From assembly GCA_020444275.1 (NCBI GenBank), contig JAHLLG010000002.1, forward strand, positions 607,991 through 671,990: a stretch of 64,000 bases of DNA. Direction: 5' to 3'. Position 1 is the first letter of the stretch; every line of letters begins with the position of its first letter. Of this stretch, positions 25,018 to 32,838 are shown piece after piece. A program made the position numbers and the translations under genes. The notes beneath the pieces were generated by a model, which had not been told where the DNA came from, made no database searches, and worked only from the letters and a program-made list of their open reading frames with translations. This DNA is from Bacteroidota bacterium (GTDB lineage Bacteria > Bacteroidota > Bacteroidia > Bacteroidales > UBA12077).

Positions 25018-25605
25018 CTATTGGTGTCTTTTATTCAAAACATCAACCACATCATTCATTTTAAACCCTTTTGCTGATAATAAAACCTGCAAGTGGTAAA
25101 TTAAATCAGCAGCTTCGTTTAAGAATAATTCATCATTTTGATCTTTTGCTTCAATTACTAGCTCAACAGCTTCTTCACCCACTTTTTGAGCAATTTTATT
25201 AATTCCTTTGCTAAAAAGCTTGGTTGTATATGATCCTTCAGGCATTTCATCGCGACGCTGATCAATGACTTGTTGTAAATAATTCAAGTCAAAGTTTGAT
25301 TTTTGCTCACCGAAGCATGTTTTTCTTCCTGTGTGACAAACAGGTCCTTCAGGTTCAGCCAAAATCAGTAGCGTATCATTGTCACAATCCGAAATAATCT
25401 CTTTTACATGTAAGTAATTTCCGCTGGTATCACCTTTGGTCCATAGTTTTTGCCTGGAGCGACTATAAAAGGTTACCCGGTTTTCTTTTTGGGTTTGCTC
25501 TAAGGCTTCTTTGTTCATAAAACCTAACATGAGTACTTCTCTTGTTTTGTAATCTTGTATGATTGCGGGGATTAACCCGTTTAGTTTATTAAAATCTAAA
25601 TTCAT
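25018..25605 (-). CDS. hisIE: Bifunctional phosphoribosyl-AMP cyclohydrolase/phosphoribosyl-ATP pyrophosphatase
   Basis: A 195-residue fusion. The HisI domain (about 1-105) carries TFYSRSRQKLWTKGDTSGN and the metal-binding cysteines in SDCDNDTLL and GPVCHTGRKTCF. The HisE domain (about 108-195) carries KGINKIAQKVGEEAVELVIE. These are the second and third steps of histidine synthesis, on PR-ATP and PR-AMP. It is the last gene of the his operon, separated from hisF by 81 nt holding an inverted GTCGAA repeat. Confidence 0.97.
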   Translation of the reverse strand: MNLDFNKLNGLIPAIIQDYKTREVLMLGFMNKEALEQTQKENRVTFYSRSRQKLWTKGDTSGNYLHVKEIISDCDNDTLLILAEPEGPVCHTGRKTCFGEQKSNFDLNYLQQVIDQRRDEMPEGSYTTKLFSKGINKIAQKVGEEAVELVIEAKDQNDELFLNEAADLIYHLQVLLSAKGFKMNDVVDVLNKRHQ

Positions 25606-25686: not shown

Positions 25687-26442
25687 TTATATTCTTACTG
25701 GTATATTTTTCTTGTCTAATCTCTGTTTAAGCTTTGAAATTTCAATCTCTTTATAATGAAAAACACTGGCAGCCAGGGCTGCTTCAACATTTGCATACTT
25801 GAAAACTTCTTCAAAATCCTGAATAGATCCTGCACCACCTGATGCAATCACTGGAATATTTAAGTTTTCAGTAAGCCATTTCAGCGGTTCTAAAGCAAAT
25901 CCATTCTTTGTTCCATCGTGATTCATGGATGTAAACAATATTTCTCCACATCCCAACGATTCTGCTTGTTTTGTCCAAGTAAAAAGCTCCAATCCCGTTT
26001 TTATTCTTCCGCCGTTTTTGTAAACAATCCATTTTTCATTTTCAAATTTGGCATCTATAGCCAATACAATAAACTGACTTCCAAACTTTTCAGCAATTTG
26101 TTGTATCAATTCAGGATTATTGATTGCAGCAGAGTTTACAGAAATTTTATCAGCTCCTGCTGAGAGAATCATATCTGCATCTTCAAGACTAGAGATTCCG
26201 CCACCCACCGTAAAAGGAATGTTGATTTTCCTGGCAATCTTTTTAACTAGATCTGCTAATGTTTTTCGTTTTTCGTGTGATGCTGTAATATCTAGAAATA
26301 CCAATTCATCAGCTCCGTTATCACTGTAAAACTTACCCAGTTCAACAGGATCGCCAACATTTTTTAAATTTTCAAATTCAATTCCTTTAACAGTTTGTCC
26401 GTTGTTAATATCCAAACAGGGGATTATTCGTTTTGCTAACAT
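25687..26442 (-). CDS. hisF: Imidazole glycerol phosphate synthase cyclase subunit
   Basis: A 251-residue TIM-barrel enzyme beginning [12 protein letters not shown], with catalytic Asp11 there and Asp in LAIDAKFEN (about 130), plus the phosphate-binding GGGIS and ASGGAGS loops. With HisH it converts PRFAR to imidazole glycerol phosphate and AICAR. It overlaps hisA by 7 nt, typical of translational coupling. Confidence 0.97.
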
Positions 26443-27158
26443 TGTTTTAGTGTTAAATTTTCAACAGGGATAATATCTTCATAAAATGCTTTTCCTACAA
26501 TTACTGCATCAATACCTACTTTATCCAATTCATAAATATCTTTTTTCGAACTTACACCGCCACTTGCAATGATATATTTGTCCGGGAAAAACTCTTTGAG
26601 TGATTTGTACAATTCAATATTTGCACCTGAAAGCATTCCGTCGCGGGCAATATCGGTACACATAAATTTATCAATTCCCAGATCAGCGTAAGCTGAAATT
26701 AAATCGTAAATCTGAATATTGGTTTCCTTGGTCCATCCATTAATGTAAACCTTCTTATTAAAAACATCCGAGGCGACTATAAATAATTTAGCACCAAATT
26801 CATTAATTAAATTTTTAAATGTTTCGGGTTCTTTGATTGCCAAACTGCCTATTCCAATATAACTGGCACCGGCATTCAAAGCATTTTGAACTTGCTTTTG
26901 AGTTCTAATTCCACCGCTATAATCTACAGTAAGGTTTGTTTTGGAACAGATATCTTTTAAGACATTTATATTTTCGGTTTCGCCCGATTTAGCTCCATCC
27001 AGGTCCACCAGATGTAGGCGTTTATAACCCTGATTTTCGAATGCTTTTGCTACCATAGCAGGCTCACTCGAATAAACTGTTTTTTGATTGTATTTTCCTT
27101 GCGACAGTCGTACGCACTGACCATCCATTAAATCGATTGCTGGTATTATTTCTATCAT
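26436..27158 (-). CDS. hisA: Phosphoribosylformimino-5-aminoimidazole carboxamide ribotide isomerase
   Basis: A 240-residue TIM barrel, paralogous to HisF, beginning [20 protein letters not shown], with catalytic Asp near residue 9 and a second in CTDIARDGM (about 168), and IASGGVSS and GIGSLA phosphate loops. It isomerises ProFAR to PRFAR. It overlaps hisH by 4 nt and hisF by 7 nt. Confidence 0.97.
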
Positions 27159-27736
27159 AACTCTATAAAATTTTTTAAAATGATTTCACCTGTTTTTCCG
27201 CTTCGTTCCGGGTGAAACTGCGTAGCGAAAAAGTTATTCTTTTGTAAAGCAGCACTGAAAGGCTTTATGTAATTGCTTTCAGCAATGCTATACTGACTTT
27301 GATCTGCAAAATAACTGTGAACAAAATAAACATAGCTATCTTCAGTTACATCTTTAAATAATGGTCCTTTGCAGTTGTTAAGTTTATTCCACCCGATATG
27401 TGGGACTTTATTTGCTGCCGGAAATCTTTGAATCAATTCATCGAATATTCCTAAACATGGCGTGTTCCCTTCCATAGAATAGTTACACATGAGTTGCATT
27501 CCTAAGCAAATACCTAAAAAGGGTTGAGTTAAAGTTGGGATTAACTCATTTAGTTTTGTTTGGCGCAGGTAATTCATCGTAGTCGATGCCTGACCAACAC
27601 CTGGAAATATTACTTTGTCTGCTTTTGATATGATTTCTGGATCATCGGTAATAACTGGTTTTACTCCTAATCGCTCTAAAGCAAAGGCTACACTTTGTAT
27701 ATTTCCTGCATTGTATTTTATGATTGCTGTTTTCAT
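27155..27736 (-). CDS. hisH: Imidazole glycerol phosphate synthase glutaminase subunit
   Basis: A 193-residue class I glutamine amidotransferase. Nucleophile Cys is in FLGICLGMQLM (about 77), with His and Glu in ATQFHPERSG near the C-terminus. It supplies ammonia to HisF. It overlaps hisA by 4 nt; the 87 nt separating it from hisB hold an inverted repeat. Confidence 0.96.
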   Translation of the reverse strand: MKTAIIKYNAGNIQSVAFALERLGVKPVITDDPEIISKADKVIFPGVGQASTTMNYLRQTKLNELIPTLTQPFLGICLGMQLMCNYSMEGNTPCLGIFDELIQRFPAANKVPHIGWNKLNNCKGPLFKDVTEDSYVYFVHSYFADQSQYSIAESNYIKPFSAALQKNNFFATQFHPERSGKTGEIILKNFIEL

Positions 27737-27823: not shown

Positions 27824-28918
27824 TTAAAGAACTCCCTTTGTTGAAGGCACTGCAAATGAGTACTCATCTTGTTTAATTGCCATCTTTATGCTTCTTCCTA
27901 AGGCTTTAAAAATGCTTTCAATTTTATGGTGTTCGTTATTTCCTTCAGCTTTTATGTTTAAGTTGCACTGCGCAGCATCAGAAAAGGATTTAAAAAAATG
28001 ATAAAACATTTCCGTTGGCATATCACCAATTTTTTCACGTTTAAATTCAGCATCCCAGACTAACCAGGATCGACCGCCAAAATCTAAAGCTACTTGTGCT
28101 AAACAATCGTCCATCGGTAGAGTAAAGCCATAACGCTCAATACCTTTTTTATTTCCCAATGCTTTGTGAAATGCTTCGCCTAAAGCAATAGCTGTATCTT
28201 CAATGGTGTGGTGTTCATCGATATCTAAATCACCTTTCACTTTAATTTTAAGATCAATGGCAGAGTGTTTTGCCAATTGTTCCAACATATGATCAAAAAA
28301 GCGAAGACCAGTTGAGATTAATGATCTACCAGTGCCGTCCAGAGACATCTCAATATCAATATCGGTTTCATTCGTTTTTCTTGTGTGTTTAGCAGATCTG
28401 TAATTATTTCTAATAACATCTACAATTTCCACCCAATTGTTACAAATTTTAAACTCATTACTGTCCAAGCGAATATCGCCTAACAAGATACCCTGGATAT
28501 TCATATTCTTAGCAAGTTCTAAATCGCTTAAACGATCTCCAATAACGAATGACTTATCGTAATCAAGTAATTCATTTAGATAAGTTTTAACCAAACCAAT
28601 TGCTGGTTTTCTATTAGGACTATTCTCTTCAGGGAATGTCTTATCAATAAGTATTTCTGAAAAGATAATTCCTTCTCCTTTTAAGGTGTTTATAAGTTTT
28701 TCCTGAACTATATTAAATGATTCAGTAGGATAGGAGCTGGTTCCTAAACCATCCTGATTGGAAACCATTACCAGTTCATAGTCAAATTGGTTGATTAGTT
28801 GATAAAGAGCTCGAATTACTCCCGGAACAAACTCTAGTTTTTCCAGGCTATCGATTTGTTCATCTTCTGGTTCTCTGATGATCGTTCCATCACGATCTAA
28901 AAACAATATCTTCTTCAT
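27824..28918 (-). CDS. hisB: Bifunctional histidinol-phosphatase/imidazoleglycerol-phosphate dehydratase
   Basis: A 364-residue fusion. The HAD-type phosphatase domain (about 1-165) begins [17 protein letters not shown] with the DxD nucleophile pair. The dehydratase domain (about 170-364) carries [28 protein letters not shown] and [11 protein letters not shown], the manganese-binding His clusters. It catalyses two steps of histidine synthesis. Its start overlaps hisC by 29 nt. Confidence 0.97.
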
Positions 28919-29978
28919 AACTGGGTTTATTTATTCTTTGGAATTGTTTTAAACAGGTAATCAGCATTAAATTATCCAGCGACTTTCCAATAGTAATGCG
29001 CAGGCATCCTTCACAATTGGGTTCATTGGATCTGTCACGTATGATGATTCCTTCTTTCTTAAGAAATGCATACACTTGATTACTTTTTTTAAACTGTACT
29101 AAGAGAAAATTGGCATCTGACGGCCAAATTTTTTCAACAATTGAGAGTTTATCAAGCTCAGAGATGAGCCATTTTTTTTGTTCCAGGATTGCTTTTATTC
29201 CAGAACTCACAGAATTGTCTTCAAGAGCTTTTAATGCAGCTTGTTGATTGATTTGACTAATATTGTATGGATATTTAATCTTATTTAATATTTGTACAAT
29301 TTCTACATTCATAAAAGCCATTCCCAAACGGATTCCAGCCATAGCTCTTGCTTTTGAGAATGTCTGAAGAACAATTAGGTTTGGATAGTTTTGAATTTCT
29401 GAAATTAAATCCGGATCATCTGCAAAGTCAATGTAAGCTTCATCTACAACTATTAAGCCTTTGAACTGATTTAAAAGTTCTAAAATGGATTCTTTCTTCA
29501 TCAGATTTCCGGTAGGATTGTTAGGCGAACAAATAAAAATGATCTTGGACTGAGCTCCTTTTTTCATTATTTCATTTACATCTATTTGAAAATTAGCGTC
29601 AAGATCTATTTTTATAACATTTACGTTATTAATATTAGCGCATACTTCATACATTCCATAAGTAGGAACATTAACTACTATTGAGTCCTTTTCTGGTTCA
29701 CAAAATGCTCTTATTAACAAATCAATGATTTCATCGCTTCCATTTCCCAAAAAGATATTTTCAATAGGTGCATACTTTACAATACCTAGCTTTTCTTTTA
29801 ATTTTCTTTGTAAAGGATCAGGATAGCGATTGTAACCAATCGGGAATGGATTTTCGTTGGCATCCAGCAAGATAGCATCTGAATCATTCACCAGGTCACG
29901 TGCCGATTGATAAGGTTTTAATCTTAGTACGTTTTCCCGTACCAGTTTATTTATGTTAAAATTGCTCATTGTTTTCAT
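28890..29978 (-). CDS. hisC: Histidinol-phosphate aminotransferase
   Basis: A 362-residue fold-type I aminotransferase: [10 protein letters not shown] near residue 33, [14 protein letters not shown], and the pyridoxal-phosphate Lys in [11 protein letters not shown] (about 210). It transaminates imidazole acetol phosphate. It overlaps hisD by 23 nt if the first ATG is used, 14 nt from the second (residue 4); both starts are plausible. Confidence 0.96.
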
Positions 29979-31260
29979 CTTGTATGTTTTTTAATCTTAC
30001 ACTTACTGCATTTTTGTGTGCTTGTAATTGCTCTGCTTCAGCAATGATTTCAACAAAGGGACCGATGATTTCCAAACCTGTTTTATCAGCTTTCTGGAAT
30101 GTTATTTTTTTATAATATGCATCCATATTCAGTCCGCTGTAACTTCTTGCAAAACCATTGGTTGGTAAAGTGTGATTGGTTCCTGAAGCATAGTCGCCCA
30201 AACTTTCTGGAGTATAATTTCCGAGAAATACTGAACCTGCTTGTGTAATTTGTTCAGCAATATTTTCTGGGTTTTGCATTGCTATAATCAAGTGTTCAGC
30301 TGCATATTGGTTACTCACTTGAATCATTTTTTGCTCATTTTTAAGCAATATTATTGCTCCGGATTTTAAGGATTGCCTTGCAATATCTGCACGTGGAAGC
30401 GCCTTTAGTTGATCATTTAAACTCACCAATGTGCGATTAATAAATTCTTTATTGTTTGTAAGCAATATCACCTGACTATCAATTCCGTGTTCGGCTTGTG
30501 AAAGTAGATCAGATGCAACAAATTCAGGATTAGCAGAATCATCAGCTAGTATTAATAGTTCAGAAGGACCTGCAGGCATATCTATTGCAATTCCTTGGGA
30601 TGAAACGATTTGCTTAGCTAAGGTTACAAACTGATTCCCCGGACCAAAAATCTTATCTACTTTTGGAATGGATTCTGTTCCATATGCCATAGCTGCAATA
30701 GCCTGTGCTCCACCACATGAGTAAATATTAGTAACTCGGGATATTTTTGCAGCATATAAAATAGCCGGATTTATTTCACCAGATTTATCAGGTGGTGTGC
30801 ATAGGATAATTTCTTTGCATCCAGCTAGTTGAGCGGGAATAGCTAACATTAAAACTGTTGATATTAATGGAGCTGAACCACCAGGAATATAGATTCCTAC
30901 TTTTTCAATCGGTAAAGCTTTTTGCCAGCAAGTAATTCCTTTCGTTGTTTCTAATGAAATTGTTTTCGGAATTTGTGCTTTGTGAAACTTGCTAATGTTT
31001 TCTGCTGCTATACGAATGGCATTTTTTAATTCAGGATCAAGTAATAACTCTGATTCGTCGATGATTTCATTATAGACAGATAAGTTATCTAAGATCACCT
31101 GATCAAACTTCTTAGTATAATTGATCAACGCTTTATCACCTTTCTGTTGAACCTGCTTAAGGATTTTTTTAACTGCTTTTTCTAGTTTATCTGCATCAAA
31201 AGCAGGTCTGCCTAAAGCATCTGCTAACTGATTTTTATTTGGGTATTCTAAAATTTTCAT
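29956..31260 (-). CDS. hisD: Histidinol dehydrogenase
   Basis: A 434-residue enzyme with the signature GPGNQFVTLAKQIV, GIDMPAGPSELLILAD, zinc-binding DLLSQAEHG, a catalytic EH pair in YAAEHLII, and a C-terminal GTNHTLPTNGFARSYSGLN. It oxidises histidinol to histidine in two NAD-dependent steps. It is 10 nt after hisG. Confidence 0.97.
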   Translation of the reverse strand: MKILEYPNKNQLADALGRPAFDADKLEKAVKKILKQVQQKGDKALINYTKKFDQVILDNLSVYNEIIDESELLLDPELKNAIRIAAENISKFHKAQIPKTISLETTKGITCWQKALPIEKVGIYIPGGSAPLISTVLMLAIPAQLAGCKEIILCTPPDKSGEINPAILYAAKISRVTNIYSCGGAQAIAAMAYGTESIPKVDKIFGPGNQFVTLAKQIVSSQGIAIDMPAGPSELLILADDSANPEFVASDLLSQAEHGIDSQVILLTNNKEFINRTLVSLNDQLKALPRADIARQSLKSGAIILLKNEQKMIQVSNQYAAEHLIIAMQNPENIAEQITQAGSVFLGNYTPESLGDYASGTNHTLPTNGFARSYSGLNMDAYYKKITFQKADKTGLEIIGPFVEIIAEAEQLQAHKNAVSVRLKNIQDENNEQF

Positions 31261-31270
31261 TATTGTTGGT

Positions 31271-32128
31271 TTATAAAATCATTTTCTCAATTGGAATTAC
31301 TAAGATGCCTTGTGCACCTGCTGATTTTAACTGGTCAATTACTTCCCAGAACTTCTCTTCGTTAACCACAGAGTGCAGCGAGCACCAATTATCATCGACT
31401 AAAGGCATAATGGTCGGACTTTTCATTCCGGGTATGATTTCAATAATTTCTTTTAATTTTTCATTAGGTGCATTTAACAGAATGTATTTGTTTGATTTTG
31501 CTTTTTGTACCGATTTTATTCGAAAGATGAGTTGATCCAGAATTTCCTGTATTTCGGGATTTAGCTTTTCTTTACCAATAATAATTGCTTCGGATTCTAT
31601 CACCTTTTCTACTTCTTTGAGTCCGTTGCTGATTAAAGTGCTCCCTGAACTAACAATATCGAAAATACCATCGGCAAGCCCAATACTTGGTGATATTTCA
31701 ACCGAACCACTTATTTGGTGTATTTCTGCGTTAATGTTATTGTCTTGAAGGAATTTCTTTAGAATGAAAGGATAGGAGGTAGCAATGCGCTTATTCTGGA
31801 AGTAATCTACTGAATTATACTTTTCAGATTTTGGAATGGCTAAGGATAACCGGCATTTAGCAAAACCTAATCGCTGATAAACTGATAGTGGATAGCCTTT
31901 TTCGAGCATTTCATTTTCACCTACAATTCCAATATCAGCTACTCCATCATTGATGCATTGTGGAATGTCATCATCTCGTAAATAGAGAATTTCAATAGGG
32001 AAATTTGACGAAACCGATATAAGTTTCCGATTTCCATTGGTTAATTTAATATTGCATTCCTGCAATAATTGAAGCGATTTTTCGCTTAGTCTTCCTGATT
32101 TTTGTACTGCAATTTTTAGTTTTTCCAT
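31271..32128 (-). CDS. hisG: ATP phosphoribosyltransferase, long form
   Basis: A 285-residue long-form HisG with a catalytic bilobed domain (about 1-205; IAVQKSGRLSEKS, DIGIVGENE, ASGSTLISNGL-type PRPP loop SSGSTLISNG) and a C-terminal ACT-like regulatory domain (about 215-285) that binds histidine, so no HisZ is needed. It catalyses the first, feedback-regulated step of histidine synthesis. It is the first structural gene of the operon; its expression passes two leader-peptide attenuators in series. Confidence 0.96.
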   Translation of the reverse strand: MEKLKIAVQKSGRLSEKSLQLLQECNIKLTNGNRKLISVSSNFPIEILYLRDDDIPQCINDGVADIGIVGENEMLEKGYPLSVYQRLGFAKCRLSLAIPKSEKYNSVDYFQNKRIATSYPFILKKFLQDNNINAEIHQISGSVEISPSIGLADGIFDIVSSGSTLISNGLKEVEKVIESEAIIIGKEKLNPEIQEILDQLIFRIKSVQKAKSNKYILLNAPNEKLKEIIEIIPGMKSPTIMPLVDDNWCSLHSVVNEEKFWEVIDQLKSAGAQGILVIPIEKMIL

Positions 32129-32151: not shown

Positions 32152-32179
32152 AAAAAAGGTCTGCAGAGAACTGCAGACC
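32152..32179 (-). terminator. Proximal intrinsic terminator of the his attenuator region
   Basis: On the minus strand GGTCTGCAG, loop TTCT, CTGCAGACC, followed by six T and 23 nt before the hisG ATG. A perfect 9-bp stem. The leader segment GCAGAAGA (32219-32226) can pair with its loop and 3' arm (TTCTCTGC) with one mismatch, a possible antiterminator. Confidence 0.93.
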
Positions 32180-32210
32180 TTTAATTTCATTTATCGAACC
32201 TTAAAACAAG

Positions 32211-32282
32211 TCATAGTATCTTCTGCCGGGTGCGGTGCGCACTCGAATGATGATGATGAATATGATGATGTTTTTGGTTCAT
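32211..32282 (-). CDS. hisL: Proximal his leader peptide
   Basis: A 23-codon minus-strand ORF: MNQK, three His, Ile, four His, then SSAHRTRQKIL and stop. It has eight His codons. It lies 31 nt before a strong terminator and then hisG. A small hairpin (GTGCG/CGCAC, 32230-32242) falls right after the His run, a possible ribosome or polymerase pause site. This is the canonical layout of His-specific, ribosome-mediated attenuation. The segment GCAGAAGA in its last codons is the candidate antiterminator strand. Confidence 0.92.
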   Translation of the reverse strand: MNQKHHHIHHHHSSAHRTRQKIL

Positions 32283-32315
32283 GTTGTTTTTATTGTATTA
32301 TAATTTTATTAAATG

Positions 32316-32345
32316 AAAAAGGACCTGCAAATTTGCAAGCCCTTT
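32316..32345 (-). terminator. Distal intrinsic terminator of the his attenuator region
   Basis: On the minus strand AAAGGGCTTGCAA and TTGCAGGTCCTTT form a 13-bp stem with two G-T wobbles, followed by five T. It lies between the two His leader peptides. Its 3' half contains AAATTTGCA (32326-32334), complementary over nine bases to TGCAAATTT in the last codons of the distal leader. Confidence 0.88.
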
Positions 32346-32372
32346 AATTATGTTATTATATTTTTTAGGAAT

Positions 32373-32450
32373 CTACAAAAATTTGCATACACTGCCATTA
32401 CCAGCATAATGATGGTGATGATGAATAGTATGTACAAATTGTAAATTCAT
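32373..32450 (-). CDS. Distal his leader peptide
   Basis: A 25-codon minus-strand ORF: MNLQFVHTI, five tandem His, then YAGNGSVCKFL and stop. It has six His codons. It is the first leader met by RNA polymerase. TGCAAATTT (32379-32387), spanning the Cys-Lys-Phe codons near its end, can pair perfectly over nine bases with the following terminator. A ribosome finishing the peptide would mask this strand (termination); one stalled at His would leave it free (readthrough). It duplicates the proximal leader in design but not in sequence. Confidence 0.9.
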   Translation of the reverse strand: MNLQFVHTIHHHHHYAGNGSVCKFL

Positions 32451-32838
32451 TTTTTTCTGTTTTGATCGTGCAATAATAAGTACAAGATTTAAAAAAACAA
32501 AATTTTTATAACATTACATTCAATAAATATGAATATGAGTGACTTGGAAAAACTCAAATATAAGAACAGAACTGGCAGGAAAATAACAACTAGCGGGAAT
32601 AAAAACCAGTGAAGAACGAAAAAACGAATTGCAATATTTTTTTAGATTATCTGGTTTATAACCCTTTGTATTGCTGATTTTATCCTTAGTTGAAGAAAAA
32701 ATTAATTTAGTTCTTCGGAATTGTTAGAATAATATTCCAATAAATAAGTACACAAATCCTTAAATTGGTTAACATTTTCTGATTTTCATTGTTTATCAAA
32801 ACAAGAGATAAATAATGTTTAATATAAAATAATCAGAT
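32451..32838. other. Divergent intergenic region between the his leader and the UbiA gene
   Basis: 388 nt without a convincing gene. It must hold the promoter of the his leader (a -7 box at 32555-32562) and that of the prenyltransferase gene. A 27-codon ORF from 32529 on the plus strand (MNMSDLEKLKY and on) has no supporting signal. No hairpin of note was seen. Confidence 0.6.
32555..32562 (-). promoter_or_regulatory. -7 promoter element of the his operon leader
   Basis: On the minus strand this reads TATATTTG, identical to the -7 box of the trp leader, about 105 nt before the distal leader ATG. No good -33 TTTG at 18-20 nt was found, so it is tentative. Confidence 0.4.

Follow-up and report, generated by a model that had tools for sequence, protein, structure and literature searches.

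Two His leader modules in series ahead of the his operon of a Bacteroidota bacterium

Two His leader modules, each a short ORF with clustered His codons followed by its own intrinsic terminator, stand in series ahead of the his operon in the 64 kb stretch of Bacteroidota DNA analyzed here (the window). This observation is confirmed, and the two modules are very probably classical ribosome-mediated His attenuators acting in series on one transcript, with the predicted behavior of a double lock that reads the same signal twice. A classical his attenuator combines a run of His codons in a leader peptide, alternative protector, antiterminator and terminator helices, and placement of the terminator before hisG. 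The arrangement is real and conserved; its parts are ordinary and its serial layout is unusual. An initial annotation of this DNA had reported two minus-strand mini-ORFs with six and eight His codons, each with its own terminator within 27-31 nt, and both ORFs lie where it had placed them (Table 1), with 27 nt in module A and 28 nt in module B between the stop codon and a terminator that precedes hisG.

Read along the minus strand, the promoter motif is followed by ORF A, terminator A, ORF B, terminator B and then hisG at 32128, and the his operon downstream of both modules is complete. Folded alone, terminators A and B have predicted energies of -15.9 and -19.1 kcal/mol. A caller that looked for short ORFs in which His codons cluster, with a terminator no more than 95 nt from the stop codon, returned exactly modules A and B from both strands of the 64 kb, and 1000 dinucleotide shuffles of the 750 nt 5' of hisG gave zero modules in 999 cases, a single module in one and a double in none. 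Two features of a classical His attenuator, a short leader ORF with consecutive His codons ahead of a his gene (hisG) and an intrinsic terminator between the leader ORF and the first gene, are thereby present, the latter in both modules.

Table 1. Positions of the leader modules, the promoter candidate and the his genes in the window
Feature	Position	Strand	Details
Promoter candidate TTG-N19-TATTATTG	32471..32500	-	sole motif match in 750 nt 5' of hisG
Leader ORF A	32373..32450	-	25 codons, 6 His; sequence MNLQFVHTIHHHHHYAGNGSVCKFL
Leader ORF A His codons	32432-32430, 32423-32409	-	single codon, run of five
Module A strand 1 (outer protector arm)	32439..32448	-	GAATTTACAA, first codons; pairs with 32378-32369
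Module A strand 2	32367..32390	-	final codons with the stop and the bases after it; candidate antiterminator strand, also the protector partner
Terminator A (strands 3 and 4)	32318..32345	-	12 pairs, T-rich tail after
Leader ORF B	32211..32282	-	23 codons, 8 His; sequence MNQKHHHIHHHHSSAHRTRQKIL
Module B strand 2	32196..32227	-	GGCAGAAGATACTATGACTTG and following GGTTC; candidate antiterminator strand, protector partner of ORF B start
Terminator B	32155..32182	-	12 pairs, T tract after
hisG, first structural gene	31271..32128	-	TIGR00070, 186.7 bits
hisD	29956..31260	-	TIGR00069
hisC	28890..29978	-	TIGR01141
hisB, bifunctional	27824..28918	-	NF003937
hisH	27155..27736	-	TIGR01855
hisA	26436..27158	-	TIGR00007
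hisF	25687..26442	-	TIGR00735
hisIE	25018..25605	-	NF002747

The position of a promoter motif argues that the modules share one transcript. The upstream region was scanned for TTG-N17..22-TAnnTTTG with one mismatch allowed, a motif that we take to be of the Bacteroidota promoter consensus type, and the match ahead of ORF A is putatively the actual promoter. At the aligned place, TTG-N19-TATAATTG is found in five of the six other genus members (L007 has no match) and TTG-N19-TATATTTG in all three tandem members of the sister genus, giving a spacing of 19 in 6/7 genus members and 3/3 tandem sister-genus members. Across 25 tandem regions the motif lies 8-40 nt 5' of leader A in 20 (vs 2.1% of shuffles) and between the modules in one (L125; vs 2.3% of shuffles). 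It is quite unlikely that the modules instead belong to separate transcripts, with a small RNA that ends at module A and an operon driven from another promoter, located between the modules or after B. A consensus scan can miss promoters, and such a layout would accommodate the five tandem regions in which no motif was found before leader A (L007, L008, L124, L142 and L177), the motifs located between modules (L125), inside a module (L004, L180) or after module B (L002, L121), and the ~185 nt that separate the two modules of L012. It is opposed by the motif's frequency before A, which is at least ten times the shuffle rate, by its absence between the modules in 24/25 regions, and by a gap of just 35 nt from terminator A to ORF B in the window. 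For two attenuators acting as a double lock, then, the two-module anatomy is present and the evidence for one transcript is the position of the promoter motif. In L012, L013 and L014 the second box of the promoter motif upstream of module A starts just 14-15 nt before the leader start codon, and the leader mRNA may therefore be almost leaderless in these loci.

Within each leader lies a protector helix. In module A, GAATTTACAA pairs with the stop-codon region TTGTAGATTC over ten positions with one G-U, and module B has a similar helix. The window protectors rank 0.01 (A) and 0.02 (B) in swap tests and beat all 30 shuffles of strand 2 in both modules (p 0.03 each, the floor of the test), so that the 1:2 helix of a classical His attenuator is found in the window as well. 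The attenuator reading of the initial annotation stands, and its structural account was incomplete because this helix had been missed. It had also placed the partner of TGCAAATTT in the 3' half of the terminator; read from the sequence, the partner AAATTTGCA takes in the final base of the terminator 5' arm and the loop, and reaches just four bases, the top ones, into the 3' arm, and the best longer duplex of this strand extends across the 5' arm too. The antiterminators of the window are predicted to form (0.64 and 0.60, with strand 2 shuffles at 0.58 and 0.42), no better in the window alone than with shuffled strand 2 (p 0.45 for A, 0.29 for B), and their swap ranks are ordinary (0.40 and 0.30).

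Examined across 178 modules, leader-terminator and leader-internal pairing is module-specific; taken by itself, the window gives a significant protector and a non-significant antiterminator. In 54 of the 178, pairing of strand 2 with its own terminator ranked within the top 5% relative to dissimilar terminators, compared with 14 for a same-length control taken before the ORF; for its own upstream (protector) arm the top 5% was reached in 43, with 9/178 for the control. In 25 mutually dissimilar modules both preferences have a permutation p of 5e-5, the floor of 20,000 permutations, and the pre-ORF control has 0.59; the duplexes contact five or more bases of the terminator 5' arm in 20/25 and five or more of the 3' arm in 11/25. 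The swap and permutation tests were added because single-duplex shuffles have little power on near-palindromic terminators: p <=0.05 was reached among the 178 by strand 2 in 52, by the stretch before the His codons in 8 and by the spacer in 28, and the window modules gave 0.62 and 0.27. A three-strand design lacking the protector was dropped for the window's clade on the protector preference in the permutation and rank tests.

Folding of 174 modules agrees in direction, with the stalled-state antiterminator at 0.52 vs 0.30 when strand 2 is shuffled (above the shuffle mean in 137) and the untranslated-state protector at 0.36 vs 0.26; individual modules reach shuffle p <=0.05 in 27/174 cases for the antiterminator and 33/174 for the protector. 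When stalled, tandem modules give a weaker signal (0.41 and 0.49 vs 0.30 and 0.37 shuffled) than single ones (0.54 vs 0.29), and some tandem modules are low (L002 A 0.05, L005 B 0.13, L008 A 0.08, L012 A 0.01). In nascent-RNA folding of the window, strand 3 is held by strand 2 with a mean probability of 0.56 in both A and B when the ribosome is stalled, 0.06 (A) and 0.00 (B) when it is at the stop codon, the contrast between these two states being in part a product of the mask, which covers strand 2, and 0.05 (A) and 0.00 (B) with no ribosome. The complete terminators persist in the stalled-state minimum-energy fold (12/12 and 11/12 pairs), and antitermination would therefore have to be kinetic. 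As bare duplexes, strand 2 of A pairs more strongly with terminator B (-16.3 kcal/mol) than with terminator A (-13.7 kcal/mol), and the modules may therefore not be independent. In Carboxylicivirga (L027, which is Carboxylicivirga linearis, L033 and L044), strand 2 occupies strand 3 in five of six modules even with no ribosome present (0.60-0.82); these attenuators may, according to the folding model, be on by default, unlike those of the window, and with five of six modules having no working protector, default termination is not general.

Conservation in close relatives supports both modules. The hisG gene is present in 7/20 genomes of the genus, and the outcome that the initial annotation had named as speaking against its reading, leaders not conserved where hisG is, was not seen within the genus, as both modules occur in 7/7. 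In the sister genus hisG occurs in 4/5 genomes, with two modules in 3/4 and only the hisG-proximal module in L102. The outer protector of module A retains its ten pairs in 6/7 genus members and lacks one of them in the remaining member; terminator A retains all 13 pairs in 7/7. Two members each lack two pairs of the five-pair inner helix of module A, and one or more of the antiterminator pairs derived from the window are lost in several (position 70-119 in 5/7); covariation within the genus says little because the changes are mostly one-sided. Scans with CAYCAYCAYCAY of five sister-genus genomes and the window's own genome were uninformative.

These data bear on two further readings. Module B might regulate alone, with module A a leftover duplicate without effect, as the B-type module of L102 and the lack of a specific preference of strand 2 of A for terminator A in the window would allow. 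This is unlikely, as module A is kept in all seven genus members with its protector and terminator pairs, the promoter motif stands before A, and the genus terminator A scores nearer to the upstream modules of 5/8 other groups than to its own neighboring terminator B. Poly-His binds metals, and the His-rich peptides might be functional themselves, for instance in metal binding, with the terminators ordinary. We consider this very improbable: the peptides vary between families outside the His run while leader-terminator complementarity persists in the set, and invariant columns continue beyond the stop codon. Two separate His attenuators in series, as the initial annotation had proposed, remain the best-supported reading because the modules are conserved, the promoter motif lies before A and only rarely between the modules, and the complementarity across the set is module-specific.

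The window's own genome (G000; 4.2 Mb, rated 98.87% complete) retains the full his operon. Its ilvD model gave no match and its trpE model one match below the cut-off (L247); the aspartokinase model gave one match above the cut-off and one below, and a crude look recognized no leaders 5' of the trpE-like and aspartokinase genes. Several genus genomes rated 95-100% complete (G006, G007, G012, G014, G018) are missing hisG, and the his operon has therefore been lost or exchanged within the genus.

Order-wide, hisG was found in 195/393 genomes searched, and upstream DNA was examined for 30 loci from the hisG search and 100 further regions out of these 195, together with the best 80 of 589 confirmed titled loci. 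Removal of repeats and of regions shorter than 350 nt left 214 upstream regions. His leader modules occur in 154/214 of these Bacteroidota regions, a sample weighted to the window's order, with a lenient caller assigning two modules to 25, one to 129 and none to 60, and finding no module in reverse-complemented, reversed or shuffled controls (214 each). A stricter caller applied to 219 regions gave 22 with two, 135 with one and 62 with none, and its controls gave 0/223 for reverse complements and 3/223 single calls for reversed sequences. One of the 22, L126, was dropped after its upstream module was judged spurious by eye, and the double call in L054 represents two ORFs on one shared terminator. 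L006, with a short T tract, was assigned to the tandem class by hand for the tree; the lenient caller finds both of its modules. Two modules occur in 7/53 families (137 loci, titled records apart). Among the best 80 of 589 titled loci they occur in three Carboxylicivirga and one Salinivirgaceae record, and in 0/38 of those from Cytophagia, Flavobacteriia, Saprospiria and Chitinophagia.

Titled Flavobacteriia loci (e.g. L065, L075, L101) carry single His leaders with a conserved H-T-C-T/S-Q-A-S-like tail, whose codons look by eye complementary to the terminator 5' arm. Cytophagales upstream regions had no full module in 12/13 cases. L040, L060, L061, L062, L073, L074 and L092 have leader-like ORFs whose last residues before the stop are HHFHHSS or close to it, with no terminator called, and a different, perhaps translational, control is possible for such ORFs. 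In the hisG tree the record L030, titled 'MAG: Bacteroides fragilis', sits with other families and may carry a misassigned name.

A FastTree phylogeny of hisG (213 rows, L008 left out), which follows one protein, requires 10 or 11 changes of the tandem state, a count in which gains and losses are inseparable. Terminators were compared among nine groups, with same-position scores required to exceed cross-position scores by a chosen margin of 2. Such an excess was seen in 11/36 group pairs. Seven of the 10 pairs formed by the window's genus, the sister genus, f14 plus f40, f47 and the Salinivirgaceae record show it, whereas 0/15 pairs involving Carboxylicivirga or family f32 do. This pattern of terminator similarity suggests one old tandem plus at least two further origins. 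A broader scheme is put forward only tentatively, as one that may well prove wrong: two old and distinct kinds of module, one upstream (the GGCTTGCA type) and one downstream, would have been retained together in several families of the order, Carboxylicivirga and another family would have acquired their tandem arrays separately, and the whole would represent a recurrent two-stage histidine sensor of Bacteroidia whose gates have different thresholds.

No title or abstract describing tandem His leaders or a Bacteroidota his attenuator was found in the open-licence literature, and priority cannot be claimed because the search covered open-licence papers only. Lopatovskaya 2010 may treat single Bacteroidetes leaders. 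At the gathering threshold no Rfam model matched in the window; RF00514 (His_leader) scored 32.1 bits on module A and 23.6 on module B vs a gathering score of 49. A Thr_leader match on module B (28.9 bits, gathering 55) and small-RNA matches, from a search admitting E up to 10, were below threshold and set aside. Twenty chosen loci, each with at least one called module, likewise gave no match to any Rfam model at threshold. His leaders in Bacteroidota that Rfam does not match at threshold (0/20 loci) contrast with the suggestion, made in the available part of an Rfam-model survey (PMC3766115), that amino-acid attenuators may have originated in gamma-proteobacteria. Naville and Gautheret (2010; PMC2965389) were aware of no leader-peptide system demonstrated beyond Proteobacteria and Actinobacteria, the atypical ermC leader aside. 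A 2022 study (PMC9413887), which describes the classical his attenuation scheme, extends his attenuators to Firmicutes; the string 'Bacteroid' is absent from its accessible text.

Tandem attenuators as such are already known, and what is described here is two His leaders in series. The classical hisL attenuator (RF00514 His_leader) shares the His codon run, the terminator before hisG and the alternative helices, and differs in being single and in another phylum. According to the portions available of the respective papers, the mefA/msrD operon (PMC10314930) has two erythromycin-sensing leader peptides, termed a double-lock system by its authors, and resembles the present case in having two leader-peptide attenuators for one signal and one operon; it senses an antibiotic, and its first attenuator controls both genes and its second msrD only, whereas here both precede the first gene. 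The tandem attenuators of Salmonella mgtCBR (PMC3641672, where a single attenuator is called normal) also comprise two short ORFs in one leader, but sense two different signals, proline and ATP, rather than one. Tandem His T-boxes in Enterococcus (PMC9413887) and tandem glycine riboswitches (PMC3766115) duplicate a sensor of one signal, as here, but recognize the tRNA or ligand itself and use no leader peptide. In an attenuation model (PMC1183508), sensitivity is linked to how many regulatory codons there are and to their share; the phrase 'two attenuators' is absent from its accessible text.

The double lock would operate as follows. RNA polymerase would start just 5' of module A. With charged His-tRNA, the ribosome would reach the stop codon of leader A and cover strand 2, and terminator A (3:4) would form; with His-tRNA scarce, it would stall at the His codons, free strand 2 would pair with strand 3, and polymerase would pass, to meet the same test at module B and then enter hisG. 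In the absence of translation the protector (1:2) would form and termination would result by default. Because both gates would see the same signal, leak-through in histidine-rich cells would be about the product of the two. Function of both terminators, control by stalling, and multiplied repression or a broader response range are here predictions from sequence. The arrangement found in several families probably works as a double lock on the histidine pathway, and, being natural and conserved, it lends itself to asking what a second attenuator for the same amino acid would add: less leakage, greater steepness of the response or another threshold.
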